Below, in pieces: positions 8,791 through 33,992 of a stretch of 64,000 nucleotides of DNA. The stretch comes from Polyangiaceae bacterium. GTDB lineage: Bacteria > Myxococcota_A > Polyangia > Polyangiales > Polyangiaceae. The notes under the pieces are model-generated. The model was not told where the DNA came from. It ran no database searches and worked only from the letters and a program-made list of their open reading frames with translations. The stretch's first letter is position 1. Every line of letters starts with the position of its first letter. The DNA lies in contig CANJMI010000016.1 in assembly GCA_947475525.1 (NCBI GenBank), forward strand, positions 1 to 64,000. Reading direction: 5' to 3'. The position numbers were made by a program, and so were the translations under genes.

Positions 8791-9309
8791 CGAGAGCTGG
8801 TCCTTACTGAGGAGAGCGAGCGTTCAGGTGCCGCCGCCGCGGGCGCAACCTCGAGCTTCTTCACGACGAAGCAGGTTAGGGCAGACGCCTGTTGAACGGC
8901 ACATGGCGGGGTCGAAGACGCAAATACTCGCAAACATGGGAACCCCAATTCTACTATCTCCGATGAGCGATTACTTCGGCCAACGAAGAGCGCGTCGGCC
9001 AGCTCGAGGTGCACGCGGCCGCGGGGGTCGTTGAAGCTCTCGCTCTGCGGCTCGACGGTCCCGGAGCGGCTCTCACCTTGGCTCACCGTCTTCGTCGTTT
9101 GTGTGTTTTGGTTTGTGGTCCGTATCGTCGCCCTCGAGTTCCGCAGGGCGACTCGCAACCGTGGTGACGCCATGCGTTCGCCATCGCGCGATCCCGGCAT
9201 CCGCTGCTTCGCGCACGGTGAGCACTGCCCCGGCGATGGCCTTGACGTCAACCCCATCCTATCTCCCGCCGTCGAGAGCACCCGTTCACCTCGCTGGAAA
9301 AGCTCGCTG
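8791..9309. other. Stretch with no supported gene
   Basis: Between the ACR3 start and the small membrane protein I find no convincing gene. It should contain the ACR3 promoter. A direct repeat GCAAATACTCGCAAACA lies at about 8919-8935, with no clear ArsR-type site. On the minus strand 9258-9076 is open for 61 codons with protein-like composition (AIAGAVLTVREAADAGIARW) but no start codon, so it may be a gene fragment. Confidence 0.5.
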
Positions 9310-9615
9310 TTGCTGACACTCGAAACGAACTACCGTGCGGCTGAGCGTTCACTCCATGCCAAAAAACCTCTCGTCGCCGCCGTCCTCAACTTCTTCTTGT
9401 TCGGCGGAGGGACGCTGTACGTGGGCAAGCGCAAGCTCGTTGGCGCCTTGCTCACTGTTGGCGGCACGATCGCCCAGGCGGCTGAAGTCTACACGTCGCC
9501 GCCGATGAAAAACCTAATCCCAACGGTGTGGCCATTTCTGATCGGCGGGCTAGTCATCCTGAAGCTCGGGCTCGCGATCGACGGCTACAACGAAGCGAAG
9601 GTCGCGAATGGCTGA
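9310..9615 (+). CDS. Small two-helix membrane protein, unknown function
   Basis: The conserved-looking part starts near KKPLVAAVLNFFLFGGGTLYVG and has hydrophobic helices at roughly residues 22-48 and 65-90, with a KRKL turn, resembling TM2-type small membrane proteins. It ends DGYNEAKVANG. The start is uncertain: TTG 9310 (MLTLETNYR...) gives 101 residues; the open frame continues back to 9031 with ATG 9172 as another option, but that upstream part has poor protein character. No operon partner is evident; the YdeI-like gene follows 75 bases later. Confidence 0.5.
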   Translation: MLTLETNYRAAERSLHAKKPLVAAVLNFFLFGGGTLYVGKRKLVGALLTVGGTIAQAAEVYTSPPMKNLIPTVWPFLIGGLVILKLGLAIDGYNEAKVANG

Positions 9616-9690
9616 CGTGCTCCGGCCCGCGCCTCGGGTTCGAGGTGTGGTCCAAGCTTGAGCTGTTCAAGAACTGAACCAGATAGGACC

Positions 9691-10038
9691 ATGAAGAAGC
9701 CAAGCGCGGGTCGAGAGGACCGAAGGGACAAGCGTTCCACGGCGATCAAGACCATGGCGAGCACAGAGTGCGCCGCTGGGGTGTTGCACGAAGTGCCGGC
9801 AGACCTGCACGTGAGCTTGACCTCCGACGCCGCCCTCCTCGCGAAGTGGAATGACCTCACACCGATCCAGCGCAACGAGTGGATTTGCTGGGTGACCATC
9901 GTCAAGAGGCCAGAGACGAGGGCCGACCATGTCATGCGATTGAGCTCGCAGCTACAGGAAGGCAAACGCCAACCCTGTTGTTGGCCAGGTTGTCCGCATC
10001 GCAGACCTAAAGCTTCGAAATGGTTCAGCAATCCGTAG
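9691..10038 (+). CDS. YdeI/OmpD-associated family protein
   Basis: ATG 9691 opens a 115-residue protein whose second half reads LTPIQRNEWICWVTIVKRPE, then TRADHVMRLSSQLQEGKRQP and CCWPGCPHR. This is the typical end of the YdeI/OmdA (bacteriocin-protection) family: a helical domain in which paired Lys/Arg-rich helices follow the NEWICWV segment. The CCWPGCPH end is Cys/His-rich and could bind metal. Family members are linked with envelope-stress and antimicrobial-peptide tolerance in enterobacteria; the molecular activity is unknown. The gene seems to stand alone. Confidence 0.75.
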   Translation: MKKPSAGREDRRDKRSTAIKTMASTECAAGVLHEVPADLHVSLTSDAALLAKWNDLTPIQRNEWICWVTIVKRPETRADHVMRLSSQLQEGKRQPCCWPGCPHRRPKASKWFSNP

Positions 10039-10216
10039 TTGGTCGAGAGGCTGCGCGGCGTCCGACCGGTCCAACGTCAGCGCCTCCTGGGAATGCAGCA
10101 GCACCAGCTTCCGCGTGACGAGCCGCGGCTCGCGCCTCGCGGACCACGTGCTCGACAGTTCTCTTAACTACGCTTTATGCAATAGTGAGGAGGACGTTGG
10201 CGTTCTTGGAGAACTC

Positions 10217-11290
10217 ATGAAAATTCTCGGTCTGCCCGTCCTCCTCCTCGTCGTCACGTCGTGTCGATCGACGGAGCCGAAGGAGTTATCGGATGCCGGC
10301 TCTCAGGCCGTGTCACGTCCGCGTGCAAGCACGAGCGTCGAGCCAAGGTCGAACCCGAGCGCGAACGCCCCGCCGACCATTGCCGCGCTTCCGAGCCGAG
10401 CACCCCTTTCGAGGGCGCCGATGAGGACCGTCGGGTATCCGGCCTCGATCGCAACCGGGATGAATGATCCCGCCGATGTCGTCGGCTTCACGGCGGATGG
10501 CAGCGAGTACGGCTATTGCGCCAGCATCGACGCTCGCGAGCCGCCGACGACCACGTGCAAGACCCTCCAACGCGACGGCACGTCGAAGGTACGAAGCACC
10601 GACGACGAGTCCGGCCAATATTCGACTGCGCGCGCGACGAGCCTCGACGCATGGATGAAAGCGTCGGGGATGGCGAAAATCGCGACGACCACGAACCCGC
10701 TGGAGCGACGCGCTCGCCCCGTGACCGGAAGCTGGCCGTTCTCCGACATCACCGTCTCGGTCAACCCCGTGCCCGGTGACGGCGCGAACACGAACGCCGT
10801 CCTGCGAGTCGGCGGGGCGGTGAACGGAGAGCCGCCCGTGTACCCGGTCACGCTCCGTGCGAAAAACAATCCGCCGCATCACACCGTATGGACGAACGAC
10901 CTCGCACTTTCGCCCGACGGCAGCGAGCTCGGCGTCGTTGGCGGCTTCTTCTGCATGGAGTGGTGCAATGACTTCGTGGTGTACAGAGCCCGCGTCGGCG
11001 CCTTCGCCTCCCTTGTCTACAACGAGACAGGCTTGCGGCATCACCAGAAGGGCGACTACGCACGGGCCGCGGAGCTCTTCCTCGCGGCGACGTGGGACGA
11101 CGAGCACGCGAAACTTCCGCCTTACAACCTCGCTTGCGCGTGGGCCCGCCTCGGCGATCCCCGCGCGAAGGACGCACTTTGGCTCGCGATCCAGCGGGAC
11201 CCCTCCGCAAAGTCACGCGCCGTGAAGGACGATGATTTCGCGAAGGTCAGGAGCGAGGCGTGGTTTCATTCACTGACCGAATCGCGTTGA
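10217..11290 (+). CDS. Lipoprotein with C-terminal TPR-like repeats
   Basis: ATG 10217 follows GGAGAACTC and begins MKILGLPVLLLVVTSC, a lipoprotein signal with Cys16. A Ser/Pro/Arg-rich linker (~20-75) leads to a middle region with the phrase VVGFTADGSEYGYCASI and later NDLALSPDGSELGVVGGFFCMEWC, both resembling beta-propeller strand motifs. The C-terminus contains a TPR-type helical pair (NETGLRHHQKGDYARAAELF...PPYNLACAWARLGD). This design occurs in other myxobacterial secreted proteins; the function is unknown. The upstream in-frame codons (from 10115) do not encode a better signal and are left out. Confidence 0.8.
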   Translation: MKILGLPVLLLVVTSCRSTEPKELSDAGSQAVSRPRASTSVEPRSNPSANAPPTIAALPSRAPLSRAPMRTVGYPASIATGMNDPADVVGFTADGSEYGYCASIDAREPPTTTCKTLQRDGTSKVRSTDDESGQYSTARATSLDAWMKASGMAKIATTTNPLERRARPVTGSWPFSDITVSVNPVPGDGANTNAVLRVGGAVNGEPPVYPVTLRAKNNPPHHTVWTNDLALSPDGSELGVVGGFFCMEWCNDFVVYRARVGAFASLVYNETGLRHHQKGDYARAAELFLAATWDDEHAKLPPYNLACAWARLGDPRAKDALWLAIQRDPSAKSRAVKDDDFAKVRSEAWFHSLTESR

Positions 11291-14632: not shown

Positions 14633-15613
14633 GTGGCCGCTCCGCGCGTAAAGCGCTCCCCAAAACGCACTTCAGGTGCTGAAGGGCCAGGGCTCGCGGG
14701 ATCGACCGCACCAGGCGAGACGCGCTATTCCATCCGGGTCACCTCGCGGCTCACTGCAATCGAACTCGATACGCTTCGAATGTGGGAGAGGCGTTACGGT
14801 TTCCCTCGCCCCGAGCGCACGAGCGGAGGCAGCCGCCTTTACTCCGAGGCAGACGTCGAGATTCTCAGGCTTCTCACGCAGGCGCTGGCCCATGGATACC
14901 GGCCGGGCGAGGTCGTCGGCAAGCCACGCGAGGAGCTATCGAGGCTCGTCCTCGCGGCATCCCAAGCGCCAACCCCGGCTGCGACAGGCACCCCGACGTT
15001 GGCGATGTTTTTTGCGTCTCTCGGTCGAGATGAGCTCGCGCTTGTCCGCGCGGATTTGCGTAAGGCCGCCGTGCTGCTTGGCCCGAAGAGATTTGTGGTC
15101 GAAGTCGCTCACCCGCTCTGCCTTCGTGTGGGTGAGCTGTGGGCGGAGGGAACACTCGAGGTGCGACACGAGCACATGCTGAGCGAGTGCTTGTCCGCTC
15201 AACTTTCTGTCCTTAGGTCCGCGTACGAGGATCGCCCCGGCGCCCCACGCGTTTTGCTGGCGACCTTGCCCAACGAGCGCCATGGCCTTGGTCTCACGAT
15301 GGCCGAAGTCTACCTGGCGGCGAACTACGTCACGCCGATCTTGCTCGGCGTTGACACGCCCGCGGAGCAAATCGTCAAGGCGGCGCGCGCTCACGCTGTC
15401 GATGCCGTAGGACTGCTGGTCACCCAGGCCTCGGATCTCAAGGCAACCAAAACCCACGTTCGCTGGATGCTCGGCGAGCTTCCGCGCCGCGTGCGTATCT
15501 GGGTTGGAGGGAAGGGCGGGACCGAGCTTGGGTTGCGCGACGACGCCGTTCGGATCGTCAGCACCTGGAACGAGATGGACGAAGCGATAGCGACGCTTCC
15601 GCGGGGCCCGTGA
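14633..15613 (+). CDS. CarH/LitR-type cobalamin-binding MerR photoreceptor regulator
   Basis: A MerR winged-helix domain (residues ~32-90, TLRMWERRYGFPRPERTSGGSRLY) is followed by a helical cap and a Rossmann-type B12-binding domain. The cap keeps the Wx9EH motif (Trp170, Glu180-His181) and the B12 domain keeps ExHxxG (Glu215, His217, Gly220), the residues that in CarH hold adenosylcobalamin. By family knowledge it should repress in the dark as an AdoCbl-bound tetramer and release DNA when light breaks the Co-C bond. The start is GTG 14633. It is divergent from the fasciclin-Bcp-DUF2878 operon, its likely target. A second paralog is at 22791. Confidence 0.92.
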   Translation: MAAPRVKRSPKRTSGAEGPGLAGSTAPGETRYSIRVTSRLTAIELDTLRMWERRYGFPRPERTSGGSRLYSEADVEILRLLTQALAHGYRPGEVVGKPREELSRLVLAASQAPTPAATGTPTLAMFFASLGRDELALVRADLRKAAVLLGPKRFVVEVAHPLCLRVGELWAEGTLEVRHEHMLSECLSAQLSVLRSAYEDRPGAPRVLLATLPNERHGLGLTMAEVYLAANYVTPILLGVDTPAEQIVKAARAHAVDAVGLLVTQASDLKATKTHVRWMLGELPRRVRIWVGGKGGTELGLRDDAVRIVSTWNEMDEAIATLPRGP

Positions 15614-16268: not shown

Positions 16269-16465
16269 GAGCGGCGACGAGCCTTTTTGTAGTCGTACTT
16301 AGGGTCAAAATCCACTTGGCCAAACAGCGCTACGATCTTAACCTGTTTGCGGCGTTGGATGTACTCCTCCAACGCTTCAGTCACGGTCGCCTTCTTCGTG
16401 CGGTGACCACCGACTTGAAGGGCCTCCTCGAGTAGGCCGTCGTCAATCGCGAGGTTTGTAGCCAT
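16265..16465 (-). CDS. vapB: VapB-type antitoxin
   Basis: This 66-residue protein begins MATNLAIDDGLLEEALQVGG, the standard ribbon-helix-helix start of type II VapB antitoxins (VapB5/DUF2191 kind), followed by HRTKKATVTEALEEYIQRRK. The C-terminal VDFDPKYDYKKARRR segment is the usual toxin-wrapping tail. ATG 16465 is chosen because the family begins exactly here and the operator overlaps it. It should bind and inhibit VapC and repress the pair. Confidence 0.93.
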   Translation of the reverse strand: MATNLAIDDGLLEEALQVGGHRTKKATVTEALEEYIQRRKQVKIVALFGQVDFDPKYDYKKARRRS

Positions 16466-16482
16466 GTGTGAAATCCTACACA
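16465..16482. promoter_or_regulatory. vapBC operator (TGTGT-N8-ACACA)
   Basis: TGTGT (16465-16469) and ACACA (16478-16482) form an inverted repeat overlapping the vapB start codon, where a ribbon-helix-helix antitoxin normally binds to autoregulate its operon. Confidence 0.6.
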
Positions 16483-16811
16483 CGCTGCCCGCGCCTGTCA
16501 AGGGCCAGGACATGAAGAGTGTGGAGAGCAAGCGCCGAAAGAACACCGAGAGACCACCCATAAGGCGGCTCGCGTTTGGTCTCCGCCGCACCGCTTTTCC
16601 CCTCCGAATCACCAACTGCCGAGCCTCGCGCGGTCACCTCGAGGACTTCGCCCACCGATGCGGAGGCAATCTTCGTCTTGCTGACGGGCATCGGCACGCT
16701 GCCACCGCTACCCGACGATGTGACGGAAGAAGCTTGGTCGGCCGCGGGCTTCGAGCTGCACGCAAGCAGCGATGCCGCGGCGAAGAGAAGGACTCCAGTA
16801 CGGGGTAGCAT
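16476..16811 (-). CDS. Short lipoprotein, C-terminus apparently replaced at the vapBC junction
   Basis: ATG 16811 begins MLPRTGVLLFAAASLLAC, a lipoprotein signal with Cys18, then a Ser/Gly linker and PMPVSKTKIASASVGEVLEV. After about residue 84 the composition changes abruptly (YGWSLGVLSALALHTLHVLA...) and the stop at 16478-16476 lies inside the vapBC operator. This suggests that the original 3' end was cut off when vapBC arrived and that the present tail is chance coding. It is divergent from the di-haem peroxidase gene. Family unknown. Confidence 0.55.
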   Translation of the reverse strand: MLPRTGVLLFAAASLLACSSKPAADQASSVTSSGSGGSVPMPVSKTKIASASVGEVLEVTARGSAVGDSEGKSGAAETKREPPYGWSLGVLSALALHTLHVLALDRRGQRV

Positions 16812-16970
16812 CGTCGGGGGCTTACTGTCTGCCGCGCGGTTTGTCACGGGGCACCGGAATCACTCCGAAATTTGAGTTGCCGTCGAATGCCGCGACCTCG
16901 CCCTGCATCTCAATCGCTACCCTGACCGCAACGTCAACGGCCCTTCGTTCTGAGGGCCAGGAGCACCATC

Positions 16971-18329
16971 ATGAACTTCCGTCGCCTCGGACGTCTCCCT
17001 CTCGCCGCTCGTCGACAGCACCCACGCGCCACGCACCCTTCGGCGCTGATTTGCGCCGGGATGATGGTCGCCTGGGTTGGGGGATGCCGCGCTCCACTCA
17101 ACGATGCGGGCCTCGACGAGGGCTCGCTCGCCGCCATAGACGAAGACACCGCGCCTTCTATGGAAGGTGGCGAACGGACCTTGGCGCAGCGGAAGAAGCC
17201 CGGCTCGAAGCCGCCGTCGATTCCGAAACTTGGGGAATATGGCGCGCCGCTCGGGGGACTCACCGCTGCCCAACAACAAGATTTTACCGATGGCCTCGAA
17301 GAGTTTCTGAACGAAGAGACGGCGGAAGGGGGCCTCGGACCTATCTTCAACCACACGGGTTGCTTCAAGTGCCACAGCGCTCCCGCGATCGGTGGGGCTT
17401 CGGCGATCAACGTCACGCGGTTTGGCGCCGTAAAGAACGGCGTGTTCGATTCGCTCGACAGCCTCGGTGGATCTCTCTTGCAGGTTTCCGCCATCGATCC
17501 GAAGGCTCAAGAGGTCGTTCCGCCGGAAGCGACGCTGGTGGCGTTTCGTCAATCGACGCCGCTGTTTGGCCTCGGTCTCATCGAGGCGATCGAGGACAGC
17601 ACGATCATCGATGGCGTAAAACGCGCGACCTTGTTCCCAGTTCAAGGCAAGGTGGCGATGGTGCAGGACGTCGTCTCCGATACGTCGCGCGTGGGCCGCT
17701 TCGGCTGGAAGGCGCAGCAAGCGACGCTGCTCGCGTTCTCGGGTGACGCTTACGTAAACGAGATGGGTGTCACGAGCCGGTTTTTCGTTGCGGAGAACGC
17801 CCCAAACGGAAAGCAGAGTGTGCTCGCGCAGTTCGATACGGTGGCCGACCCTGAGGACCAGGTCGACCTCGCAACTGGCAAGGCCGACATCGATCACGCT
17901 GCGGATTTCATGCGGTTGCTCGCGCCGCCCCCGTCGAAGCTTCCAAAGATGGCCGAAGAGGTCGCCGGCAGCGCGTTGTTTCAGAGCTCGGGTTGCGCCG
18001 ATTGCCACACGCCCAGCATGAAGACTGGGAAGAACGTCATCGCCGCGCTGTCGTTAAAAGAGGTGCGTCTCTTCTCGGACCTGCTGCTCCATGACATGGG
18101 GAACCTCGGCGACGGGATCGTACAAGGGCCCGCGGCTGGCTCGCAGATGAAGACGGCACCGCTCTGGGGCTTGAAGACCTCGGCGCCTTACCTTCACGAC
18201 GGTCGCGCGCCCACGGTGGACCTCGCCGTGCGCGCGCATGCGGGTCAGGCGAAGGCGTCTCGTGATCGATACGTTAAGCTTATCGCGACCGAGCGGGCGG
18301 CACTCTTGAAGTTCCTCGATACGCTGTGA
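16971..18329 (+). CDS. Di-haem cytochrome c oxidoreductase/peroxidase-like lipoprotein (DHOR family)
   Basis: The protein has an N-terminal hydrophobic segment with a lipobox-like WVGGC, then two c-type haem sites: CFKCH (near residue 130) and CADCH (near residue 343). Between and after them are the family phrases of the putative di-haem oxidoreductases (PF06537): GLGLIEAI, GRFGWKAQQATLL, LLLHDMGNLGDGI, and KTAPLWGLKTSAPYLHDGRA at the end. The 452-residue length fits. It should act in the periplasm as an electron-transfer or peroxidase enzyme; the substrate is unknown. A Ser/Thr kinase gene follows 73 bases later on the same strand. Confidence 0.9.
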   Translation: MNFRRLGRLPLAARRQHPRATHPSALICAGMMVAWVGGCRAPLNDAGLDEGSLAAIDEDTAPSMEGGERTLAQRKKPGSKPPSIPKLGEYGAPLGGLTAAQQQDFTDGLEEFLNEETAEGGLGPIFNHTGCFKCHSAPAIGGASAINVTRFGAVKNGVFDSLDSLGGSLLQVSAIDPKAQEVVPPEATLVAFRQSTPLFGLGLIEAIEDSTIIDGVKRATLFPVQGKVAMVQDVVSDTSRVGRFGWKAQQATLLAFSGDAYVNEMGVTSRFFVAENAPNGKQSVLAQFDTVADPEDQVDLATGKADIDHAADFMRLLAPPPSKLPKMAEEVAGSALFQSSGCADCHTPSMKTGKNVIAALSLKEVRLFSDLLLHDMGNLGDGIVQGPAAGSQMKTAPLWGLKTSAPYLHDGRAPTVDLAVRAHAGQAKASRDRYVKLIATERAALLKFLDTL

Positions 18330-18402
18330 GCACCACAGAAAACGGCGAGGTTTACGGATAAGGATTCCAAAGAGGATAGCCTGAGCCGCGACGCCTCGAT
18401 GC

Positions 18403-20016
18403 ATGGTACGTGGAGCCATCATGGCTAAGGCGATCAAGCACCGCCGCGCGTCCGAGACCGAGACCGAGACGGAGTCCGTGACGGAGACGCCTGGCCAAGG
18501 GTCTCTTTGCGGGGCCTGTGAGACGCGCTCGACGGAGTCGACCTGCTCGCGCTGTGGAACGCCGCTCGTGCTCGACGGCCACTGGGTGCTCGAGAGGAAG
18601 CTCGGCGAAGGCGGTCAGAGTCGCGTTTATGAAGCCCGGTCGCTCCGTGATGGCGCGCGGGCAGCGGTCAAGGTGATGTCCCTCGACCGGGCGCGCGACT
18701 GGAAGAGCGTCGAGATGTTCGAGCGGTCGGCCAAGGTCCTCGCGAACCTCGAGCACCCGGGCGTGCCGAAGTTCATTGCCTCGTTCCGAGTGGAGGCCAA
18801 CGCGATCCTGCTCTTTTGCCTCGTGCACGAGCGAATCGACGGCGAGACGTTGAAGGCAGCACTCAACCGCGGCGAGCGTTACGACGAAGCGAAAGCGCGC
18901 CGACTTCTGCGCGAAGTGCTCGGTATCCTCCAGTACCTCCACGGGTTCTCTCCGCCGGTGATTCACCGCGATATCAAGCAGTCGAACCTGATGCGGCGCA
19001 AAGGCGGAGGGCTCGTCCTCATCGACTTCGATCTGGTGAGCGACGAAGCCAAGCCGGACGGCGGCTCGACGATCGGCGTAGGCACGTCGGGTTACGCGCC
19101 CATCGAGCAATTGATGGGAGAAGCCGTTCCCGCCACCGACCTTTACGCGCTCGGCATGACGCTGGTCACGTTGCTGTCGCGCAAGGATCCGAGCGCCCTT
19201 CGCGAGAGGGGTGAGCACCGCGTCGACTTCGAGCGTCACGTCCACGTCTCGAAGGACTTCGAGAAGCTCCTCGGCGGGATGCTCGAGCCGGAGGTCGCAC
19301 GGCGATTCCAGACAGCGGACGCCGTGCTCAAGAGCCTCGAGGCGAAGCGGTCTACAAGCAAACCGCGGCGCGCACAGCGGGACGACGCTCCCGCGGAGAC
19401 AGAGTCGGAGCGCCCCCGCATCGTGCCCACGGCACAAGCAAACGTACGCGCAGACATAAGGCAAAACGTAAACAGGCATATCCTTTTTATCATGGTGTTT
19501 ACCGTGGTGTTTTCCGCCGCGGGTTTCATCGTTCAGTGGCTCGCCAGTGGGCTAGGCGACACGGAGAGTCTGCCGCAGCCGCCGCAGCCCACCCCCACCC
19601 CCATCCCCACCCCCATCCCCATCCAAGCGCCTGCGTCGAACACCTTTGCTGCCGAAGAGGACCCGAGCAAGGTCCGTGAGGCGCTCCTCGGCAGACGCTG
19701 GAGCGGCGAGCTCGCAGGCACCCAACTGTCCGTCGTCGTGAACGCGAAAGGCGACAACCTCGAGGCGACCGCGGCCGAACGCGACGGCACGACGCGCCCG
19801 ATGATGACCGCCAGGATCAACGCCACCGGCCTCGTCATCCTCGCTGGAGACTTCGCCGTGCTCGACGTGTCGCATCACCTCAGCTGCTCGGGTGAGCTCG
19901 CCACGGGCGGCACATCGATGCGCGGCACCTGCGCCGACGCCTTGACAGGCAAGGAGGGCACGGCAAAAACGTCGACCCCGTTCACCCTTTACACAACTCA
20001 GGAGAGTACCCAATGA
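18403..20016 (+). CDS. Transmembrane Ser/Thr protein kinase with extracytoplasmic domain
   Basis: A Ser/Thr/Glu-rich N-terminus and a four-Cys zinc ribbon (Cys36, 39, 48, 51) precede a Hanks-type kinase: glycine loop GEGGQSRVYEA, ATP-binding Lys90, HRDIKQSN (Asp190, Asn195), and TSGYAPIEQ. The metal-binding loop is DFD (208-210) instead of DFG, an unusual change. One membrane helix (~360-382) is followed by a Pro/Thr repeat linker and an exported ~110-residue domain with the core RRWSGELAG. A similar pattern appears twice in the next protein, whose ATG overlaps this stop codon (ATGA). It probably senses envelope signals. ATG 18421 is an alternative start. Confidence 0.93.
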   Translation: MVRGAIMAKAIKHRRASETETETESVTETPGQGSLCGACETRSTESTCSRCGTPLVLDGHWVLERKLGEGGQSRVYEARSLRDGARAAVKVMSLDRARDWKSVEMFERSAKVLANLEHPGVPKFIASFRVEANAILLFCLVHERIDGETLKAALNRGERYDEAKARRLLREVLGILQYLHGFSPPVIHRDIKQSNLMRRKGGGLVLIDFDLVSDEAKPDGGSTIGVGTSGYAPIEQLMGEAVPATDLYALGMTLVTLLSRKDPSALRERGEHRVDFERHVHVSKDFEKLLGGMLEPEVARRFQTADAVLKSLEAKRSTSKPRRAQRDDAPAETESERPRIVPTAQANVRADIRQNVNRHILFIMVFTVVFSAAGFIVQWLASGLGDTESLPQPPQPTPTPIPTPIPIQAPASNTFAAEEDPSKVREALLGRRWSGELAGTQLSVVVNAKGDNLEATAAERDGTTRPMMTARINATGLVILAGDFAVLDVSHHLSCSGELATGGTSMRGTCADALTGKEGTAKTSTPFTLYTTQESTQ

Positions 20017-21659: not shown

Positions 21660-22103
21660 ATGGACTCCGAATTGCTTCGTCACGGGTGCGTCGTGAACTT
21701 CGATGCTGATTCGCGCAAAGCGTGGCTCGAGGCTGGCGGCTTCATCGCCGGGGGCGACGGACTCAGCGACACCGAGCGCGACGAGCTCTCCGCTTCGGCG
21801 GCGGGCCCCGAGCTTTCGCGGGAGGAATGCGACACGATCCTCGCGCGGGGCGCGGCCGCCAAGGCGTTGCCCGCGCACCTGCTTGCGGCGCTGGCCTCGA
21901 ATGATGTCGCGCTGCGGCTCGATATCCTCGCCAACATCGTGCAGGGGGTCAGCGTGGACGGGCTGAGTGAAGCCGAGCGCCTGCGCTTCTGCGAGGTCGC
22001 CGAGGCTGCGTTTGGCGCGGCTCGGGTCGACGCCGTCGTTCGGTACTGCCTCGCCGCGAGCGAAGTCGTCCGGCTGCGCGCTGAGGTCGTGCTCGGGACT
22101 TAG
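21660..22103 (+). CDS. Small helical protein, TerB-like pattern, function unknown
   Basis: ATG 21660 (GTG 21654 also possible) opens a 147-residue, mostly helical acidic protein. It has two repeated EF-hand-like or TerB-like phrases: GDGLSDTERDEL in the first half and VDGLSEAERLRF in the second, the latter following LLAALASNDVALRLDILANI. The 'aDG.s..E...l' pattern is typical of TerB/tellurite-type helical domains, which bind metals in some proteins. It follows the Cys-rich mini-protein closely. Assignment is tentative. Confidence 0.6.
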   Translation: MDSELLRHGCVVNFDADSRKAWLEAGGFIAGGDGLSDTERDELSASAAGPELSREECDTILARGAAAKALPAHLLAALASNDVALRLDILANIVQGVSVDGLSEAERLRFCEVAEAAFGAARVDAVVRYCLAASEVVRLRAEVVLGT

Positions 22104-22153
22104 CGGGCGTCATCGGCCGCGCGAGATACAAACGTGCGTTCTGCACGGAGGTC

Positions 22154-22624
22154 ATGGAGGCGTTCGTTGCCTCTTTGACGACGGAATTAAGGCATGCTCG
22201 GGCGAGCGCAGTTGCACACGAGCGTGCGACGCCAGGAGCTGTCGTGGCGAGAGTTATTTTCAAGGTCGTGTTCGCGCTCTTCTTCATCTTGGGCGGCGTG
22301 AACCATTTTGTGCACCCCGGCTTCTACCTGCCGATGATGCCGGACTACCTGCCGAGTCACGTGCTCTTGGTGCAGCTGAGCGGCGTCGCCGAGGTGCTCC
22401 TAGGGGGCGCACTGCTCATCCCGCGCCTCGAGCGCCTCGCGGCCTGGGGGATGCTCGCGCTGCTCGTCGCGGTCTTTCCCGCGAACCTCCACATGGCGCT
22501 GCACCCGGACCGCTTCCCGACGATCGCGCCCGCGATGCTCTGGCTTCGGCTCCCGCTTCAGCTGCCGCTCCTCGCATGGGCGTGGGCCTACAGGCGAAAC
22601 AACGGCGCAATCCCGACTTCGTGA
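22154..22624 (+). CDS. DoxX family membrane protein
   Basis: About four membrane helices start after a 34-residue polar N-terminus. The DoxX hallmarks are FALFFILGGVNHFVHPGFYL, SGVAEVLLGGALLIPRLERLAAWGMLALLVAVFPANLHMA, and the ending QLPLLAWAWAYRRN. DoxX-like proteins occur in stress and redox contexts; the biochemical function is not settled. If translation begins at a later start the protein would be shorter, but ATG 22154 is the only ATG before the first helix. It lies ahead of the second B12-type regulator with a 163-base gap. Confidence 0.85.
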   Translation: MEAFVASLTTELRHARASAVAHERATPGAVVARVIFKVVFALFFILGGVNHFVHPGFYLPMMPDYLPSHVLLVQLSGVAEVLLGGALLIPRLERLAAWGMLALLVAVFPANLHMALHPDRFPTIAPAMLWLRLPLQLPLLAWAWAYRRNNGAIPTS

Positions 22625-22742
22625 GGCGCTGCGCGGGCGAGGTAGAGCTCGACGCGGATTCACCGAGAGCCTGCGTGGCTTGGGGTGGCTCTCGCACGTC
22701 GTCATGGCAGCCTGCTCGAGTTCTCAACACGGTGGTTGATTC

Positions 22743-22768
22743 GGTCGTTTTAAGCTTAAAAAACGACC
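22743..22768. promoter_or_regulatory. Strong palindrome before the second B12 regulator
   Basis: GGTCGTTTT (22743-22751) and AAAACGACC (22760-22768) are perfect 9-bp inverted arms around AAGCTTAA. A further CGTTTTTTT lies at 22781-22789. The site ends 22 bases before the start codon of the MerR-B12 gene, in an otherwise GC-rich region, so it is a strong candidate operator/promoter element for autoregulation. Confidence 0.65.
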
Positions 22769-22790
22769 AAATCGTACTATCGTTTTTTTG

Positions 22791-23603
22791 ATGGGAGCAG
22801 CCACCATGCTCACGACGAGGGCAGCCGCCAAAGCTGCGGCGGTAGCGCCTTCCACCATCAAGCGCTGGGCCGACCAAGGCATTTTGTCGTTCTCGCGGAC
22901 GGCGGGAGGTCACCGCCGGTTCGAGCGCTTCGCCATCGAGCGACTGCTTCGCGAGCAACCGGGCTCGGTCTCCTCGGGCGACTCGGTGCCGAGCGCCTGG
23001 GTCCGCTGCCTGGCGAACGCAAGACGCCATGAGATCGACAGTCGGCTCCTCGAGGCGAAAGCGAGGCTCGGGTCTTGGTGGCGCGTCGCCGATGAGCTCG
23101 CCTTGGCCCTGGCCGAGATGGGCAACCTCTGGGAGCGCGGGCGGCTGACGATCGCCGACGAGCACGTCGCCTCCGACGCATTGGTCCGAGCGCTCGCGCG
23201 CGTCGGTGATGCGTTACCGATTCGCCTCGATGGGCCGACATGTCTCCTCGCGTGCGCGGGCGAGGACGAGCACACGCTCGGACTGTCACTCGCCGAGTTG
23301 TGCGTGCGCGAGCTCGGTTGGACGCCGATGTGGCTCGGTCGTCGCACGCCGATCGGCGAGGTGCTCCGGTTGGTGCGAGGCGGCCAGGTGGCGATGGTGG
23401 CGCTGTCGGCGTCCGCGCTTCTCGGTGACGAGCAGGCCTTGCGCGCGGTCACCGACGACGTAGGCGCGGCCTGCAAAGAGCGCGGGGTAAGTCTGCTACT
23501 CGGCGGCGCAGGTGCATGGCCCTGCCAGCCTTTTTACGGCATTCGGGTGACTTCCTTCGCGGATTTCCACCGCTGCCTCACTCCAAAAATGGAACGCCCA
23601 TGA
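22791..23603 (+). CDS. Second CarH/LitR-type cobalamin-binding MerR regulator
   Basis: The N-terminus is an excisionase/MerR-type HTH (VAPSTIKRWADQGILSFSRT, GGHRRFERFAIERLL). The helical cap has Wx9EH (Trp in NLWERGRL, then DEH; W115, E125-H126 counted from 22788). The B12 fold has DxHxxG (DEHTLG) and AELCVRELGWTPMWLGRRTP, as in AdoCbl-dependent light sensors. It should repress in the dark and release in light. ATG 22791 is used; ATG 22806 is an alternative directly before the HTH. It is the likely regulator of the lipocalin-epimerase-CPBP-carotenoid oxygenase genes downstream. Confidence 0.88.
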   Translation: MGAATMLTTRAAAKAAAVAPSTIKRWADQGILSFSRTAGGHRRFERFAIERLLREQPGSVSSGDSVPSAWVRCLANARRHEIDSRLLEAKARLGSWWRVADELALALAEMGNLWERGRLTIADEHVASDALVRALARVGDALPIRLDGPTCLLACAGEDEHTLGLSLAELCVRELGWTPMWLGRRTPIGEVLRLVRGGQVAMVALSASALLGDEQALRAVTDDVGAACKERGVSLLLGGAGAWPCQPFYGIRVTSFADFHRCLTPKMERP

Positions 23604-23655
23604 CCCCATCGCGGCCGTACTCGAGAGAGCTCGGTGCTCGATGAGGAGGAGTCCC

Positions 23656-24234
23656 GTGAAGCGAAGTTTCACATTGCTCTGTGCGCTCGTCGCTTCCGGA
23701 TGCGCCGCCAGCACGACGGAACGGCTGCGCCTGCCGCCCCTTCAAACGGTCGCGCACGTCGACCTCTCGAGCTACGTCGGGACCTGGTACGAGATCGCCA
23801 ACTTCCCACAGAGCTTCCAGCGCGGCTGCACCGCCACGACCGCCACTTATACGGTGCGCGCCGACGGCGACATCGATGTGCTCAACCGCTGCCGCAAAGG
23901 CTCCCTCGACGGGACGGAGAAGTCTGGGCTCGGACGTGCCCGCGTCGTCGACCGCGCCACAAACGCGAAGCTCGAGGTGAGCTTCTTTCGCCCGTTCTGG
24001 GGCGACTACTGGATCATCGACCTCGCCGACGACTACTCGTACGCCGTCGTCGGCCATCCCGGTCGCGACTACCTCTGGATCCTCGCCCGCACGCCGACCA
24101 TGCCCGAGGCGACCTACCAGAGTGTGGTCACGCGCCTCCAGGCCAAAGGCTACGAGACCGCCCGGCTCATACGAACGCTGCAGATCGCAGAACCTTCCCC
24201 TAAAGGCGGAGCTCCTTCGCCGGAAAGAAGCTGA
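23656..24234 (+). CDS. blc: Bacterial lipocalin (Blc-like) lipoprotein
   Basis: The start is GTG 23656: GAGGAGG at 23643-23649 is an ideal ribosome-binding site for it, whereas the in-frame ATG 23641 would place that site inside the gene. The product begins MKRSFTLLCALVASGC (lipobox Cys16) and has the lipocalin signature GTWYEIANFPQSFQRGC, then ATYTVRADGDIDVLNRC, KLEVSFFRPFWGDYWIIDL and YLWILARTP. Lipocalins bind small hydrophobic molecules. With a carotenoid oxygenase in the same run, an apocarotenoid ligand is a reasonable guess. The TGA shares its A with the ATG of the epimerase gene. Confidence 0.93.
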   Translation: MKRSFTLLCALVASGCAASTTERLRLPPLQTVAHVDLSSYVGTWYEIANFPQSFQRGCTATTATYTVRADGDIDVLNRCRKGSLDGTEKSGLGRARVVDRATNAKLEVSFFRPFWGDYWIIDLADDYSYAVVGHPGRDYLWILARTPTMPEATYQSVVTRLQAKGYETARLIRTLQIAEPSPKGGAPSPERS

Positions 24235-25214
24235 TGGCAGGGCTCCAGCCAACACGTTCGCTGCTCTTGACCGGCGCGACAGGTTTCGTCGGTGGTGCCG
24301 CGAGACTCGCGCTCGCTCGCGAGGGCTGGCGCATACGGTGCCTGACGCGAGACGCAGCGCGGGCAAAAAAGCGCGAACCTACACTGGACTGGGTGCAGGG
24401 CGACGTGGGGGATCCGGCCTCGTGTGCACGGGCGCTCGAGGGCTGCCAGGCAGCACTCTACCTCGTGCACGGGATCGGCGAGGGCGACGATTATCACGGG
24501 AACGAGGTGAAGGCCGCAGCCACCTTCTCAAAGGCGGCGGCCGCAGCTGGCGTCGAACGCATCGTGTACCTCGGCGGCGTCGCGCCGGTCGGCACGGGCT
24601 CCGATCACCTGCGCAGCCGGCTCGACGTAGGCGAGGCGCTGCGTGCCGGTTCGGTGAAGACCATCGAGCTGCGCGCAAGCATGATCGTCGGGCATGGCAG
24701 CCTCAGCTGGCTCATCGTCCGCGACCTGACGGCCCGCTTGCCGTTCATGGTCCTGCCGCGGTGGCTCAAGTCACGCACTCAGCCGGTCGGGATTGACGAT
24801 GTCGTCGTGGCGCTGTTGGGGGCTCTCGAGCTGCCTCTCGGGGCGAGCGCCTGGTTCGATATCCCCGGACCGGTCACGCTCTCCGGAAAGGAAATCCTCA
24901 ATGAGACCGCGGGCGTCATGGGCCTTCGTCACCCGCGCATGATCGAAGTACCTTTTCTGTCGCCGCGCTTGTCATCGCATTGGGTTCGCTTCGTCACGCG
25001 TGCACAGTGGTCCGTCGCACGTGAAGTCGTGGTCGGCTTGACCGAGGATCTGCTCGCGCGAGACGACCACTTCTGGGAGCTCATCGGCCATCCACATCGC
25101 TGCTCCTTTGCCGAGGCGGCCAAGCGGGCTCTCGATGCCGACGGCGAGCATCGTGTCCAAGGAGCCTGGGGCGCCATCGAGCGCGCTCGGGGGCTCTCGA
25201 AGAGTTCGTTATGA
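24234..25214 (+). CDS. NAD(P)-binding epimerase/NmrA-like SDR protein
   Basis: This 326-residue atypical SDR begins with the Rossmann GATGFVGGAARLAL motif (TGxxGxxG), followed by WVQGDVGDPAS, YLVHGIGEGDDYHGNEVKAA and VERIVYLGGVAP. The Tyr-x3-Lys pair is absent at its usual place, as in NmrA/complex-I-NDUFA9-like members. It ends with a helical part containing HWVRFVTRAQWSVAREVV. The family reduces or isomerises varied substrates or acts as a redox sensor. The same kind of gene accompanies lipocalin genes in LitR-controlled clusters of other bacteria (family knowledge). Overlaps at both ends indicate an operon. Confidence 0.85.
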   Translation: MAGLQPTRSLLLTGATGFVGGAARLALAREGWRIRCLTRDAARAKKREPTLDWVQGDVGDPASCARALEGCQAALYLVHGIGEGDDYHGNEVKAAATFSKAAAAAGVERIVYLGGVAPVGTGSDHLRSRLDVGEALRAGSVKTIELRASMIVGHGSLSWLIVRDLTARLPFMVLPRWLKSRTQPVGIDDVVVALLGALELPLGASAWFDIPGPVTLSGKEILNETAGVMGLRHPRMIEVPFLSPRLSSHWVRFVTRAQWSVAREVVVGLTEDLLARDDHFWELIGHPHRCSFAEAAKRALDADGEHRVQGAWGAIERARGLSKSSL

Positions 25215-25855
25215 ATGGCGACGCTTTGGAAATCCTGACCATCAAGTCCCGCAGTACGACCCTCGCGTTCGCGTCCATCGTCGGGTGGCTTGCCGCTGCC
25301 TCGATGGCGGGACCACTCGGTATCTGGCTTAGCGTTGGCGGTGCGGCGCTTGTGCTCGGCATCGCCGTCCTGCTGTTTCAACGCCCGGCGTCGAAGGCGC
25401 TGTTGCGGCCGAGGGCGTGGCTCGTTCTCCTTGGCGCAGCCGCGGGAGGCGTGATGGCCGTCGCCACCTACCTTCTCTACCCACCTTTCTCGCGCATTTT
25501 GCCATTCATCGTGACCGACACCGCGCGGCTGTACGCGGCGTTTCGGGCGCCGTCGTTCGTCGTCGCGTCGGTCGCGCTGGTCCCCATCATCCTCGGAGAG
25601 GAACTGGTCGGGCGAGGCGTCGTTCAGACGTCGCTGGTCGAGCGGCTTGGAGCTTGGCGAGGCATCCCGCTGGCAGCCGTGGTGTACGCGCTGGTGCACG
25701 CGCCTCTCGGCTCGCCCGTGCTGGTGGCGGTCGCGTTCTTCTGCGGGCTCGCGTGGGGCATTATGCGCGCCATGACAGCGAGTCTCGTACCCACCTTGGT
25801 GGCTCACCTGCTGTGGGACGTGCTCGTCCTGCTCTGGCTGCCGCTGGACACCTGA
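25211..25855 (+). CDS. CPBP family intramembrane metalloprotease
   Basis: About six membrane helices carry the CPBP (Abi/CAAX protease-like) motifs: GEELVGRGVVQ (EExxxR), YALVHAPLG (second motif His), and TLVAHLLWD (third His/Asp motif). It should cleave a membrane or prenylated peptide, but the substrate is unknown. ATG 25211 overlaps the epimerase stop (ATGA), so it belongs to the same operon. The carotenoid oxygenase gene begins 62 bases after its stop. Confidence 0.9.
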   Translation: MNGDALEILTIKSRSTTLAFASIVGWLAAASMAGPLGIWLSVGGAALVLGIAVLLFQRPASKALLRPRAWLVLLGAAAGGVMAVATYLLYPPFSRILPFIVTDTARLYAAFRAPSFVVASVALVPIILGEELVGRGVVQTSLVERLGAWRGIPLAAVVYALVHAPLGSPVLVAVAFFCGLAWGIMRAMTASLVPTLVAHLLWDVLVLLWLPLDT

Positions 25856-25917
25856 CCTAGGGCCCTCGACACGGCGTAGTTGAGCGCAAGCGAGCGAGAC
25901 GATACAACGCTGTAGCC

Positions 25918-27384
25918 ATGCTCTCTCGTCGTAGCTTTCTTCAGCTTGCGGGTCTCAGCGGTGCCGGCTTCGTCAGCGGCGTGCCGCTCCTCGGTGGTTG
26001 CCGCACTCAAGCCGTCGATTCACCGCTGACCGAGGCGCTTCCGGACGATCCGAGCAAGCCGTGGTGGCTGCGCCAAAACTACGCGCCGGTCGGCGAGAGC
26101 GAGGCGCACGACCTCGAGGTCGTCGGCGCCCTGCCGCCAGCGCTCGCGGGGCTGTATCTCCGCAACGGCCCCAACTCGCTCGGCGTCGACACGTCCCACT
26201 GGTTCCTCGGCGACGGCATGGTCCACGGCGTGCGGCTCGAGGGAGGCAAGGCGCCGTGGTACCGCGCGCGCTACATCAAGACCGAAGCACTCGGCGCAAC
26301 CGGCGACGCACTCGCGCCACCGACGCTCACCCACCATCAGGCCAACACCAGCATCCTCGTGCACCAGAAGCGCGTCCTCTGCCTCGAGGAGGTCGGCTTG
26401 CCTTACCAGATCTCGAGCGATGACCTCTCGACCATCGGCCCGTACGACTTCAGCCAAAAGCTGAAGACGGCGATGACGGCGCACCCGAAGCTCGATCCGC
26501 TGACCGGCGAGCTGTTGTTCTTCGGCTACGGTGTGTTCGAACCGGCGCTCACCTATCACCGCGTCGATGCCAAGGGCGTGCTGGTGCAGAGCGAGAAGAT
26601 CCCGCTGCCGAAGGCGGTGATGATGCACGACTTCCAGGTCACCGCGACACACGTCGTGTTCATGGACCTGCCGATCCTCTTCGACATCGATCTGGCGATC
26701 TCAGGCAGCGGCTTTCCCTTTCGCTGGGCCCCCGAGAACGGCGCGAGGATCGGTGTGATGCCGCGCACGGGCACCGCGGCCGACGTGAAGTGGATCGAGA
26801 TCGAGCCGTGCTTCGTGTTTCACACCTGGAACGCGTTTCACGATCCGAAAAACCCGGCGATCATCCACCTCGACGCCATCCGCTACACGAGCATCTGGGA
26901 AAAGAATTCCAGCGATTTTAACACCGATGGCCGGGCGCATCGCTTCAGCATCGACACCGCCGCGGGCAAGGTCGGGCTGACGCAGCTCGACGACCACATT
27001 GCCGAGTTCCCACGCATCAGCCCAAGGCAGCAGGGCGGCGTTTATCGCTATGGCTACTGTCTCTCGACCGATGGCGTCGTGGCGGCGGACGGCTCGCTGC
27101 CCGCCTTCAATCACGTGGCGAAATACGACCACCAGACCGGCAAGCGGCAGCTCCACGCGCTCGCGGCCGGGCAGGAACTCGATGAGGCGATGTTCGTCGC
27201 CGATCCCGCTGGTAAGGGCGAAGACGACGGCTGGCTTCTCGCTTACATGTTCGATCACGCCGACAATCGTAGCCAGCTGCTCGTCCTCGACGCGGCGGAG
27301 ATCTCCGCGCCACCTGTCGCACGGGTGCTGCTGCCTCACCGCGTGCCCCACGGCTTCCACGGCGCCTTCGTCCCCGCCAGCTGA
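25918..27384 (+). CDS. Carotenoid cleavage oxygenase, Tat-type signal
   Basis: The N-terminus is a twin-arginine signal (SRRSFLQLAG) followed by a lipobox-like LLGGC, so export is predicted. The body is a seven-blade propeller enzyme of the RPE65/CCO family: LYLRNGPNSLG near the start, and the four Fe(II) histidines in TAHPKLDPLTGE, MMHDFQVT, FHTWNAFHD and HGFHGAF (C-terminus). It should split carotenoids with O2 to apocarotenals. The 488-residue length is normal. Position in the light-sensor run suggests light-induced expression; a periplasmic or membrane-bound site would be unusual. Confidence 0.93.
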   Translation: MLSRRSFLQLAGLSGAGFVSGVPLLGGCRTQAVDSPLTEALPDDPSKPWWLRQNYAPVGESEAHDLEVVGALPPALAGLYLRNGPNSLGVDTSHWFLGDGMVHGVRLEGGKAPWYRARYIKTEALGATGDALAPPTLTHHQANTSILVHQKRVLCLEEVGLPYQISSDDLSTIGPYDFSQKLKTAMTAHPKLDPLTGELLFFGYGVFEPALTYHRVDAKGVLVQSEKIPLPKAVMMHDFQVTATHVVFMDLPILFDIDLAISGSGFPFRWAPENGARIGVMPRTGTAADVKWIEIEPCFVFHTWNAFHDPKNPAIIHLDAIRYTSIWEKNSSDFNTDGRAHRFSIDTAAGKVGLTQLDDHIAEFPRISPRQQGGVYRYGYCLSTDGVVAADGSLPAFNHVAKYDHQTGKRQLHALAAGQELDEAMFVADPAGKGEDDGWLLAYMFDHADNRSQLLVLDAAEISAPPVARVLLPHRVPHGFHGAFVPAS

Positions 27385-27586
27385 GATCACATCAGGCTCT
27401 TGCCGGGGATGCACAGGACTGCGCCGCGACGCCGCCGAGGAGCCGGAGCAGCTCACGGCCGCCGAAGCCGCGGGAAGATGCGGTTGCCCGGCTTCTAGAG
27501 GTCGCCCCGACTTTTACACAAATAGGACGGCGGTTTCCGAAGGCCTCGCAACCTCAGCCCTTTTTCTTGGTATCTTCCCGCCCCAC

Positions 27587-28408
27587 ATGGACCGCACTGC
27601 CGTTTTTGTCGATGCCGGCTACCTCTTCGCCGCAGGCTCCAGGCTCGTGGCGAACGAGAAACTCCCGCGCGGCGAGCTGCAGCTCGACTACGACGCGGTC
27701 CTCGAATTGCTCGCAGACCTGACCGCTCAGCTCACCGGGCTGCCCCTCTTGCGCATCTATTGGTACGACGGGACGGCCACTGGCCCAACCCCGCAGCAGC
27801 TCGCGCTTGCGTACCGGCCCAACGTGAAGTTGCGCCTCGGCTTCATGAACCAGCAGGGCCAGCAGCAGGGCGTTGACTCGCTGATCGTCGCCGATCTGAT
27901 CAACCTGTCGCGCAACCGAGCGATGGCGGACGCGCTCCTTCTGACCGGTGACGACGACCTCCGCGTCGGTATGCAGCACGCCCAGGAGTTCGGAGTCCGG
28001 GTCCATCTTTTGGGCATCGCGCCTTCGCGAGACAACCAATCGGGCTTCCTCGCGCAGGAAGCGGACAACGTTCGCGAGCTCACGCTGATCGAGGTCCGTT
28101 CGTTTCTCACGCGTGCGACTTCGCAGACCGCGTCGGTGTCACCGGGCGCACTATCGCCGACGACATCCATGCCCGCGACAGCCTTGGCATTTGAGGGCGT
28201 GGCCGAGCGCGTCGCTTGCGAACTCAATCCGGAAGAGCTTTTGGCGGTGCTGAACGAAACGGCCGGGGCCTCGGTTCCCTCGTCGATCGATCGTCGACTT
28301 CTCGTCGCTGGTACCCAAGCTGCCGGTGGTAACAAGCTCACTTCAGAGCAAAAGCACGGTCTCCGTGGCGCATTGCTAAACGCCTGTCGTAGCGTCGGAA
28401 AGGCGTAG
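27587..28408 (+). CDS. NYN-domain (LabA/PIN-like) putative nuclease
   Basis: ATG 27587 begins MDRTAVFVDAGYLFAAGSRL, the NYN/PIN-like first strand with its catalytic Asp. It is followed by LLRIYWYDGTATGPTPQQ, GVDSLIVADLINLSRNRAMADALLLTGDDDLRVGMQHAQEFGVRVHLLGI (second and third acidic positions). About 90 further residues form a separate helical C-terminal domain (EELLAVLNETAGAS...). NYN proteins are usually RNases. The ATG starts at the family's typical position; an open frame upstream is out of context. No operon partner seen. Confidence 0.85.
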   Translation: MDRTAVFVDAGYLFAAGSRLVANEKLPRGELQLDYDAVLELLADLTAQLTGLPLLRIYWYDGTATGPTPQQLALAYRPNVKLRLGFMNQQGQQQGVDSLIVADLINLSRNRAMADALLLTGDDDLRVGMQHAQEFGVRVHLLGIAPSRDNQSGFLAQEADNVRELTLIEVRSFLTRATSQTASVSPGALSPTTSMPATALAFEGVAERVACELNPEELLAVLNETAGASVPSSIDRRLLVAGTQAAGGNKLTSEQKHGLRGALLNACRSVGKA

Positions 28409-32588: not shown

Positions 32589-33992
32589 ATGAATCAGGGC
32601 TGGAATGCGGGCGCGAATCTGCCGGACGGTTACGGTTCGTCCGGCGCACCGCCCGCTGGCGGCGGCTACGGACCTCCAGGCGGAGCGCCTCCAGGTGGCG
32701 GCGGCTACGGGCCTCCAGGCGGAGCGCCTCCAGGTGGCGGCGGCTACGGGCCTCCAGGCGGAGCGCCTCCAGGTGGTGGCGGCTACGGACCTCCAGGCGG
32801 AGCGCCTCCAGGTGGCGGCGGCTACGGACCTCCGGGTGGAGCGCCTCCAGGTGGCGGCGGCTACGGGCCTCCAGGTGGAGCGCCTCCAGGTGGCGGCGGC
32901 TACGGACCTCCGGGCGGAGCGCCTCCAGGTGGCGGCGGCTACGGACCTCCGGGCGGAGCGCCTCCAGGTGGTGGCGGCTACGGACCTCCGGGCGGAGCGC
33001 CTCCAGGTGGCGGCGGCTACGGACCTCCAGGCGGAGCGCCTCCAGGTGGCGGCGGCTACGGACCTCCAGGTGGTGGCGGCTACGGACCTCCAGGTGGAGC
33101 GCCTCCAGGTGGTGGCGGCTACGGACCTCCAGGTGGCGGCGGCTACGGACCTCCAGGTGGTGGCGGCTACGGACCTCCAGGTGGCGGTTACGGAATGCCG
33201 CCGCAAGGCCAAAAGTCGGGTGGCAATGGCGGCTTGATTGCGGGTCTCGGGATAGGCTGCCTCTTGCTCTTCGCGCTCGTAGGCTTCGGGGTCTATTCCG
33301 TCGTGAACCGCACGACCAAGGCGGCGAAAGCTCTCGCGTCCGCGGTCGCATCGAGCACGATTTCCGACGGAGATCCCGTGCCGACGACGACGACATCGGG
33401 CGGCGGCGCGATCAAGGTGACCTTCAAAAGTTCGAGCTTTTTCCGCCCGCGGGTCGGCAAAGCACTGCATTTCGTCGGCGAGCTCGTGAATTCCGGCAGC
33501 GACCCGGTTTCCGCGCCGGGCGCCAAGGTGACCTTGTTCGACGCGGCGGGCACCGCGGTGGACAGCTCCATCTGCATCGCGAGTGGCGTGCGAGCCTTAC
33601 CGGTCGGCGAAAGCGTGCCGTGTTGGGGCTTATTCAGTAAGGCGGAAGAGTACAAAACCATCAAGGCGGAGGGCACGGGCTACCCGCTGTACATGGCCCT
33701 TAAGCTCGCCTCGTTGACGATGAGCGACGTGACGGGCAACGAGCCCGCGAACACGTACGCCCCTTACAAGGTGACGGGCAAAGTCACGAACAAGTCGACC
33801 TTTGCCGCGAAAGCCGTGTGGGTTGCGGTCGGCCTCTACGACGAGGCCGACAAACTCGTCGGCGCAGGCCAGGGCCCCGTGGCGGGCAACGATCTCGATG
33901 CAAGCTCCGCCGGCAAGTTCGAGGTCAATGTGTACAACGTGGCGGCGAAACCGAAGCGCTTCGAGGCGAAGGCGTTCGGCTACGACAAGTGA
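32589..33992 (+). CDS. Gly/Pro/Tyr tandem-repeat membrane protein with FxLYD-like C-terminal domains
   Basis: ATG 32589 begins MNQGWNAGANLPDGYGSSG. Residues ~25-205 are about eleven copies of GGGGYGPPGGAPP mixed with shorter GGGGYGPP units (DNA period 39 bases). A single membrane helix (GGLIAGLGIGCLLLFALVGFGVYSVV) follows. The outer part has two beta-sandwich-like units resembling FxLYD/DUF3426 domains: KALHFVGELVNSGSDPVSAPGAKVTLFDAAG and YAPYKVTGKVTNKSTFAAKAVWVAVGLYDEADKLVG. The Gly/Pro part is cytoplasmic by topology, as in other myxobacterial proteins with proline-rich N-termini. Function unknown. Confidence 0.88.
   Translation: MNQGWNAGANLPDGYGSSGAPPAGGGYGPPGGAPPGGGGYGPPGGAPPGGGGYGPPGGAPPGGGGYGPPGGAPPGGGGYGPPGGAPPGGGGYGPPGGAPPGGGGYGPPGGAPPGGGGYGPPGGAPPGGGGYGPPGGAPPGGGGYGPPGGAPPGGGGYGPPGGGGYGPPGGAPPGGGGYGPPGGGGYGPPGGGGYGPPGGGYGMPPQGQKSGGNGGLIAGLGIGCLLLFALVGFGVYSVVNRTTKAAKALASAVASSTISDGDPVPTTTTSGGGAIKVTFKSSSFFRPRVGKALHFVGELVNSGSDPVSAPGAKVTLFDAAGTAVDSSICIASGVRALPVGESVPCWGLFSKAEEYKTIKAEGTGYPLYMALKLASLTMSDVTGNEPANTYAPYKVTGKVTNKSTFAAKAVWVAVGLYDEADKLVGAGQGPVAGNDLDASSAGKFEVNVYNVAAKPKRFEAKAFGYDK
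32660..33190 (+). repeat. 39-nt tandem coding repeats
   Basis: Roughly eleven 39-base units (core GGCTACGGACCTCCAGG plus CGGAGCGCCTCCAGGT), with a few shortened 24-base units near the end. Because the period is a multiple of three and GC-rich, several other frames are also open here, which creates false long ORFs on both strands. Recombination could change the copy number without breaking the frame. Confidence 0.95.

Follow-up and report, generated by a model that had tools for sequence, protein, structure and literature searches.

The stretch of DNA analysed here, in the following called the window, comprises positions 1 to 64,000 of contig CANJMI010000016.1 from a Polyangiaceae bacterium (GCA_947475525.1), and its subject is a run of five genes with a preceding operator-like segment at positions 22743-27384 on the plus strand (Table 1). 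The run is headed by a regulator that combines a MerR-type helix-turn-helix (HTH) with a cobalamin (B12)-binding domain, followed by a Blc-type lipocalin, an NAD(P)-binding epimerase-like enzyme, a CPBP intramembrane protease and a carotenoid cleavage oxygenase (CCO). Reading of the open reading frames together with Pfam and NCBIfam profiles revealed that all five genes are open and encode the expected domains. This confirms the gene content that a sequence-only reading of the region had given, including its B12 sensor upstream, which corresponds to the B12/light-type regulator of the first gene.

Table 1. Features of the run and of the gene preceding it (positions in the window)
Feature	Position	Strand	Basis
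DoxX-like gene ahead of the run	22154-22624	+	weak Pfam match below cut-off
Promoter/operator-like segment	22743-22780	+	inverted repeat 22743-22768, then conserved stretch with TCGTACTAT at its end
Regulator, MerR-type HTH and B12-binding, LitR/CarH-like	22788-23603	+	Pfam HTH_17, MerR, B12-binding_2
Blc-type lipocalin, predicted lipoprotein (VASGC)	23641-24234	+	Lipocalin_2, 168 bits
NAD(P)-binding atypical short-chain dehydrogenase/reductase, NmrA/epimerase type	24234-25214	+	NAD_binding_10, 54 bits; NmrA/Epimerase
CPBP/Rce1-like intramembrane protease	25211-25855	+	PF02517, 51.6 bits
CCO, RPE65 family	25918-27384	+	PF03055, 394.5 bits (cut-off 27)

By eye, the regulator likely starts at ATG 22791 or ATG 22806 and the lipocalin at GTG 23656, whose ribosome-binding site is better than that of ATG 23641. 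Between the end of the regulator and the start of the lipocalin there are 37-52 bases, the lipocalin stop and the epimerase start overlap by 1 base, and the epimerase and CPBP genes overlap by 4 bases. The CCO gene starts after this tight part of the run, following a gap of 62 bases in which no terminator-like site was found. A promoter scan was uninformative because it returned zero promoter-like sites anywhere in 22000-28000, and Rfam gave no match at gathering scores within the window.

By sequence, the best relative of the regulator in the PDB is 8jbs, the structure of CtMerR, described as an adenosylcobalamin (AdoCbl) photoreceptor with a light-responsive structure (PMC11796333, in excerpt). 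Both proteins have a BldC-like HTH and a cobalamin domain of the light-responsive type, and the combination of MerR HTH and cobalamin-binding domain that marks CarH/LitR members is present. The excerpt gives GxxW, EH, GxxH and GxxxP as the light signature of such proteins; three of these four elements are found in the regulator (GNLW, EH and GRRTP), and the tryptophan, the EH pair and the lower-ligand histidine are conserved. In contrast to CtMerR, the GxxH element is shifted, with its glycine one residue further away, and the photochemistry is putative.

The gene neighbourhoods of the ten closest regulator homologues outside the own genome, located in nine genomes, point in the same direction (the next eight homologues are only 31-36% identical; genes in the regions of relatives were called with a home-made gene caller). 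Carotenoid biosynthesis (crt) genes adjoin four of the ten (G004, G122, G089 and G109, with G122 and G089 being near-copies from the same genus) and a photolyase adjoins one (G110). The orthologue in the congener G004, which is 75% identical, heads a run encoding TudS-DUF1722 (RudS-type), CIA30 and TspO (G004:C46, 116-4141) and lies opposite a crt cluster that includes a lycopene cyclase. RudS genes were reported to occur in light-responsive, LitR-controlled operons (PMC11417400, in excerpt). Light control of the run by its regulator is therefore plausible, as three of the four signature elements are intact and five of the ten closest homologues adjoin crt or photolyase genes. The locus resembles the operons of myxobacterial CarH and of class II LitR of Pseudomonas in that a MerR-B12 regulator stands in front of envelope and redox genes, and in that homologues of this regulator adjoin crt, photolyase and RudS-type genes. 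It differs in its lipocalin-epimerase-CPBP-CCO cargo, which is not listed for these operons in the excerpts of the literature on them, and among open-licence papers none was found that links LitR with a lipocalin.

In front of the regulator an inverted repeat with 9-bp arms spans 22743-22768, its first base being the position at which the sequence-only reading let the region begin. Approximately 41 bases align without gaps between the promoter in the window and that of the G004 orthologue, and the aligned block ends in TCGTACTAT. When up to three mismatches are allowed, the 22-base conserved operator pattern has a single occurrence in the whole genome; a reversed-pattern control gave 0 occurrences. 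The likely target of the regulator is therefore its own run and not the crt cluster of the genome, and a wider regulon was rejected since the pattern is single in the genome, with no copy at the crt cluster.

The N-terminal region of the lipocalin ends in VASGC, a lipobox that was read as an export signal, so that the Lipocalin_2 domain and the lipoprotein signal expected of a Blc lipocalin are both present. Its best PDB relatives are structures of E. coli Blc, with which it shares the lipocalin fold and the outer-membrane lipoprotein type and from which it differs in its operon partners; the NCBIfam model of the Blc subfamily scores 134.4 bits, missing the cut-off of 267. A Pfam match to the VDE-lipocalin family was set aside, being below cut-off. 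Lipocalin matches were found in 18 of 144 genomes, nine others of them at 61-74% identity. None of the 19 lipocalin regions from other genomes was found to contain a homologue of the CCO, the regulator or the CPBP protease, and in one, from the congener G001, a close epimerase homologue adjoins the lipocalin. The flanks of many relatives end at contig ends; the G001 contig begins 437 bases before the lipocalin, for which reason loss of the regulator and a missing contig are indistinguishable there, and a whole-genome search of G001 found no regulator. In G030, approximately 7 kb separate a close lipocalin homologue from CrtI and CrtB. For actinobacteria, a figure legend in PMC5401885 shows a lipocalin with a photolyase and an epimerase near crtR and crt genes. 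By analogy, such sets would fit a light or photo-oxidation theme for the lipocalin without a CCO. They resemble the window in the lipocalin and epimerase near carotenoid genes and differ in their MarR-type regulator and phylum, and the likeness is one of gene names in that legend. In G127 (8417-11116), a close lipocalin homologue is located between zinc-type and short-chain dehydrogenases, overlapping or nearly so.

The epimerase and the CPBP protease constitute, as judged from gene order, a true conserved pair: nine of ten non-own CPBP homologues are located directly after an epimerase homologue, and the pair occurs in many unrelated contexts. Apart from it, the only piece of the run that recurs in relatives is lipocalin-epimerase, in the one congener. 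The epimerase has no close solved relative in the PDB (best E-value 9e-11).

The sequence-only reading had placed the CCO and the lipocalin in one possible apocarotenoid unit, with cleavage of a carotenoid at the envelope and a lipocalin as carrier of the product. In such a module, the CCO would act on a carotenoid of the cell itself, and the apocarotenoid would serve as a signal or pigment. Both genes are neighbours on the same strand and both products carry export signals, the crt cluster of the genome includes a lycopene cyclase, and the lipocalin homologue of G030 has CrtB and CrtI at the distance given above. Across the genomes examined the association does not recur. Some CCO is found in 65 of 144 genomes and in none of four other congeners, of which G001 nonetheless keeps lipocalin-epimerase. 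The CCO regions of the 20 best relatives contain no homologue of the lipocalin, regulator, epimerase or CPBP protease. In a survey of named genomes, covering the top 80 among 377 stretches with a match and flanks of up to 8 kb, neither a lipocalin nor a MerR-B12 protein nor crt genes were found at the CCO, and an epimerase-like gene was near it in one. As the respective partner was found in none of the 19 lipocalin regions, the 20 CCO regions and these 80 named loci, a conserved lipocalin-CCO unit was rejected. The apocarotenoid carrier module is unproven because the pairing is found only in this genome, and together with the 62-base gap, the Blc relationship of the lipocalin and the lack of a CrtB match in the three CCO relatives that are nearest among those assigned to a genome, a dedicated module is not supported by these comparisons and is considered unlikely.

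A second explanation is that the light operon ends at the CPBP gene, and that the CCO is an unrelated, separately expressed scavenger placed there by rearrangement. The gap before the CCO, the occurrence of epimerase-CPBP in unrelated contexts, the missing partners of related CCOs and the carotenoid genes of the nearest relatives (both described below) are consistent with such a chance neighbourhood. Against it stand the common strand, the gap without a terminator-like site and the carotenoid theme that the CCO shares with the family of the regulator; it is regarded as a realistic possibility, though less likely than not.

The N-terminus of the CCO, MLSRRSFLQLAGLSGAGFVSGVPLLGGC, contains a twin-arginine (RR) motif followed by LGGC. 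The NCBIfam model TAT_signal_seq scores 16.2 bits, just below its cut-off of 16.7; direct reading reveals the RR motif, a hydrophobic stretch and a lipobox cysteine, i.e., the features of a lipoprotein exported by the twin-arginine translocation (Tat) pathway. The earlier suggestion that both the lipocalin and the CCO look exported is thereby borne out at the level of predicted signals. The iron-ligand histidines H189, H237, H302 and H481 are invariant in 24 aligned sequences, as are E158 and E423 of the acidic second shell, the third position of which (E364) is acidic; seven conserved residues of the family are described in PMC8191317 (in excerpt). The predicted structural model has a predicted local distance difference test (pLDDT) score of 87, with residues 1-37 disordered, and forms a seven-bladed propeller that superimposes with root-mean-square deviations of 2.0-2.5 over 420-436 residues on VP14 (Z 46.7), LsdA (Z 46.2), NOV1 (Z 45.6) and ACO (Z 43.7). 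As plant, bacterial stilbene and apocarotenoid oxygenases fit the model equally, the fold does not tell the substrate.

This tie would allow the exported enzyme to be a stilbene or lignin-fragment dioxygenase instead of a carotenoid enzyme, for which the absence of carotenoid synthesis from some relatives could also be quoted. In LSD4, Lys-134, which precedes Glu-135, binds the stilbene hydroxyl (PMC8191317, in excerpt). A lysine at this position is present in none of the 24 aligned CCO sequences, the window having E157 before E158, and a stilbene enzyme was rejected on this missing residue. In line with this, the best NCBIfam model is that of 8'-apo-carotenoid 13,14-cleaving dioxygenases (NF052295, 366.8 bits, missing the cut-off of 675), compared with at most 211 bits for lignostilbene models, and a stilbene substrate appears improbable. 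With these apocarotenoid enzymes (NACOX type) and plant CCD1 the CCO shares the fold, the four histidines and the acidic second shell, and it differs from them by its Tat-lipoprotein signal and its position in an exported branch.

This branch emerged in a quick tree of 113 CCO rows, in which Tat labels were assigned by a simple sequence pattern. The window CCO belongs to a set of 23 rows from Myxococcota and Actinomycetota that holds every labelled row (16 Tat with lipobox, 4 Tat without lipobox, 3 unlabelled), while 0 of the 90 other rows are labelled. The three unlabelled rows (L024, L276 and L205) show RR and a lipobox-like cysteine by eye and were missed by the pattern or through a misplaced start, so that the twin-arginine motif is present in all 23 rows and a lipobox-like cysteine in 22 (all except L220). 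In 21 regions encoding exported CCOs no conserved partner was found besides wider Acidimicrobiia synteny and near-relatives. In G129 (C163, 7932-10805) two exported CCO genes occur in tandem. A search of open-licence papers found no literature on exported bacterial CCOs.

Regarding the substrate, the own genome encodes one CCO and a phytoene synthase. Its full crt cluster, on another contig (C11, 6755-19546), comprises CrtE, CrtI, a CrtL-type cyclase, CrtC/CruF-like, CruG-like and CrtD-like proteins and an acyltransferase, with a CarH-like regulator at its end; several of these genes score below curated cut-offs. An inside substrate is possible in this organism. A crt region in the congener G001 (C108) shares 99% identity with the own one over 3.3 kb (16288-19592), compared with 75-78% for two other shared stretches, which reflects either recent transfer or a mis-binned contig. 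Among eight relatives with an exported-branch CCO, a CrtB match was found in five (G129, G104, G091, G100 and G120) and in none of G048, G009 and G039, which are the nearest relatives of the window CCO with whole-genome handles (49-52%). For the broader family SQS_PSY there was no match in G048 (98% complete), the nearest whole-length relative, or in G039 (77% complete); the match in G009 is squalene-synthase-like, with a score similar to those of the weaker second copies in other genomes. These results argue for outside substrates in the three relatives. It can be speculated that an ancient Tat-exported, lipid-anchored CCO branch of Myxococcota and Actinomycetota cleaves carotenoids or apocarotenoids of prey or environment outside the cytoplasm, and that it has here come under a B12 light switch beside a lipocalin that might receive the cleavage product; in this full form the proposal is rather doubtful.

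Supply of retinal to a rhodopsin, which family membership and the presence of other CCOs near rhodopsin genes might suggest, is disfavoured. The sequence-only reading had seen no rhodopsin gene in the region, and this now extends to the whole 98.9%-complete genome, in which no rhodopsin match was found. In G037 and G136, a rhodopsin lies 0.5 and 1.7 kb from a CCO (L289 and L290), and both of these enzymes belong to another branch, which is split from the window CCO with a support of 99 in the quick tree, long branches included. Retinal production outside the inner membrane would moreover be an odd supply, and with zero rhodopsin matches in the genome this use is largely refuted and very improbable.

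We favour, with a probability of roughly 0.5, a light-derepressed envelope-stress operon headed by a B12 photoreceptor, which probably gained its exported CCO, a scavenging or detoxifying enzyme, by a local addition. In the dark, the AdoCbl-loaded regulator would sit on the palindrome at its own promoter and keep the run shut; in the light, as proposed from its family, the Co-C bond would break, the regulator would be released and the run be made. It would yield an outer-membrane Blc-like lipocalin together with the epimerase, an NAD(P) reductase or epimerase, and its CPBP partner, which may act in membrane-lipid repair or clean-up under photo-oxidative stress. The CCO, if co-transcribed, would fold with its iron in the cytoplasm, be moved via Tat, become lipid-anchored and cut polyenes at the envelope in an Fe(II)-dependent manner. 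Elsewhere, the exported branch works without a lipocalin, its substrates most likely being carotenoids or apocarotenoids encountered outside the cytoplasm. Domains, signals, gene order, catalytic residues, homologue contexts and tree position come directly from the sequences; light control, co-transcription of the CCO, its substrate and product and any cooperation with the lipocalin are proposed.

Several observations weigh against this explanation. The regulator scores 46.6 bits with the NCBIfam CarH model, far below the curated cut-off of 400, as does its paralogue in the crt cluster (136.8 bits), and by eye its palindromic site lacks the TnnACA repeats that are arranged as a direct-repeat array in CarH operators (PMC9304148, in excerpt). 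Beside five of the ten closest homologues there is no recognised light gene. The genome encodes two further MerR-B12 proteins, one in the last position of the crt cluster and one about 7 kb upstream of the run (14780-15613, plus strand) with conserved tryptophan, EH and lower-ligand histidine, so that the regulator of the run may respond to another cue. Transcription of the CCO could also start separately, given the gap of 62 bases. For the exported branch the SH-aLRT support is 88, below the mark of 95, and a stricter hydrophobicity rule was passed by 12 of 22 of its rows and by 1 of 89 others (L280, which represents one gene together with L029). Outside the run, the window contains a long Gly/Pro-rich repeated coding stretch at 32605-33237 that is open in several frames.

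In bacteria, carotenoid oxygenases are commonly treated as enzymes of the cytoplasm. The novelty of the locus is the exported branch to which its CCO belongs, which is little noticed within the family and merits specialist attention. If the proposed function is correct, loading of iron inside followed by Tat export would shift the cleavage of polyenes to the envelope, and an exported CCO whose genome lacks a phytoene synthase match would feed on or defuse foreign carotenoids. In the window, such an enzyme may in addition be under the control of a light switch.

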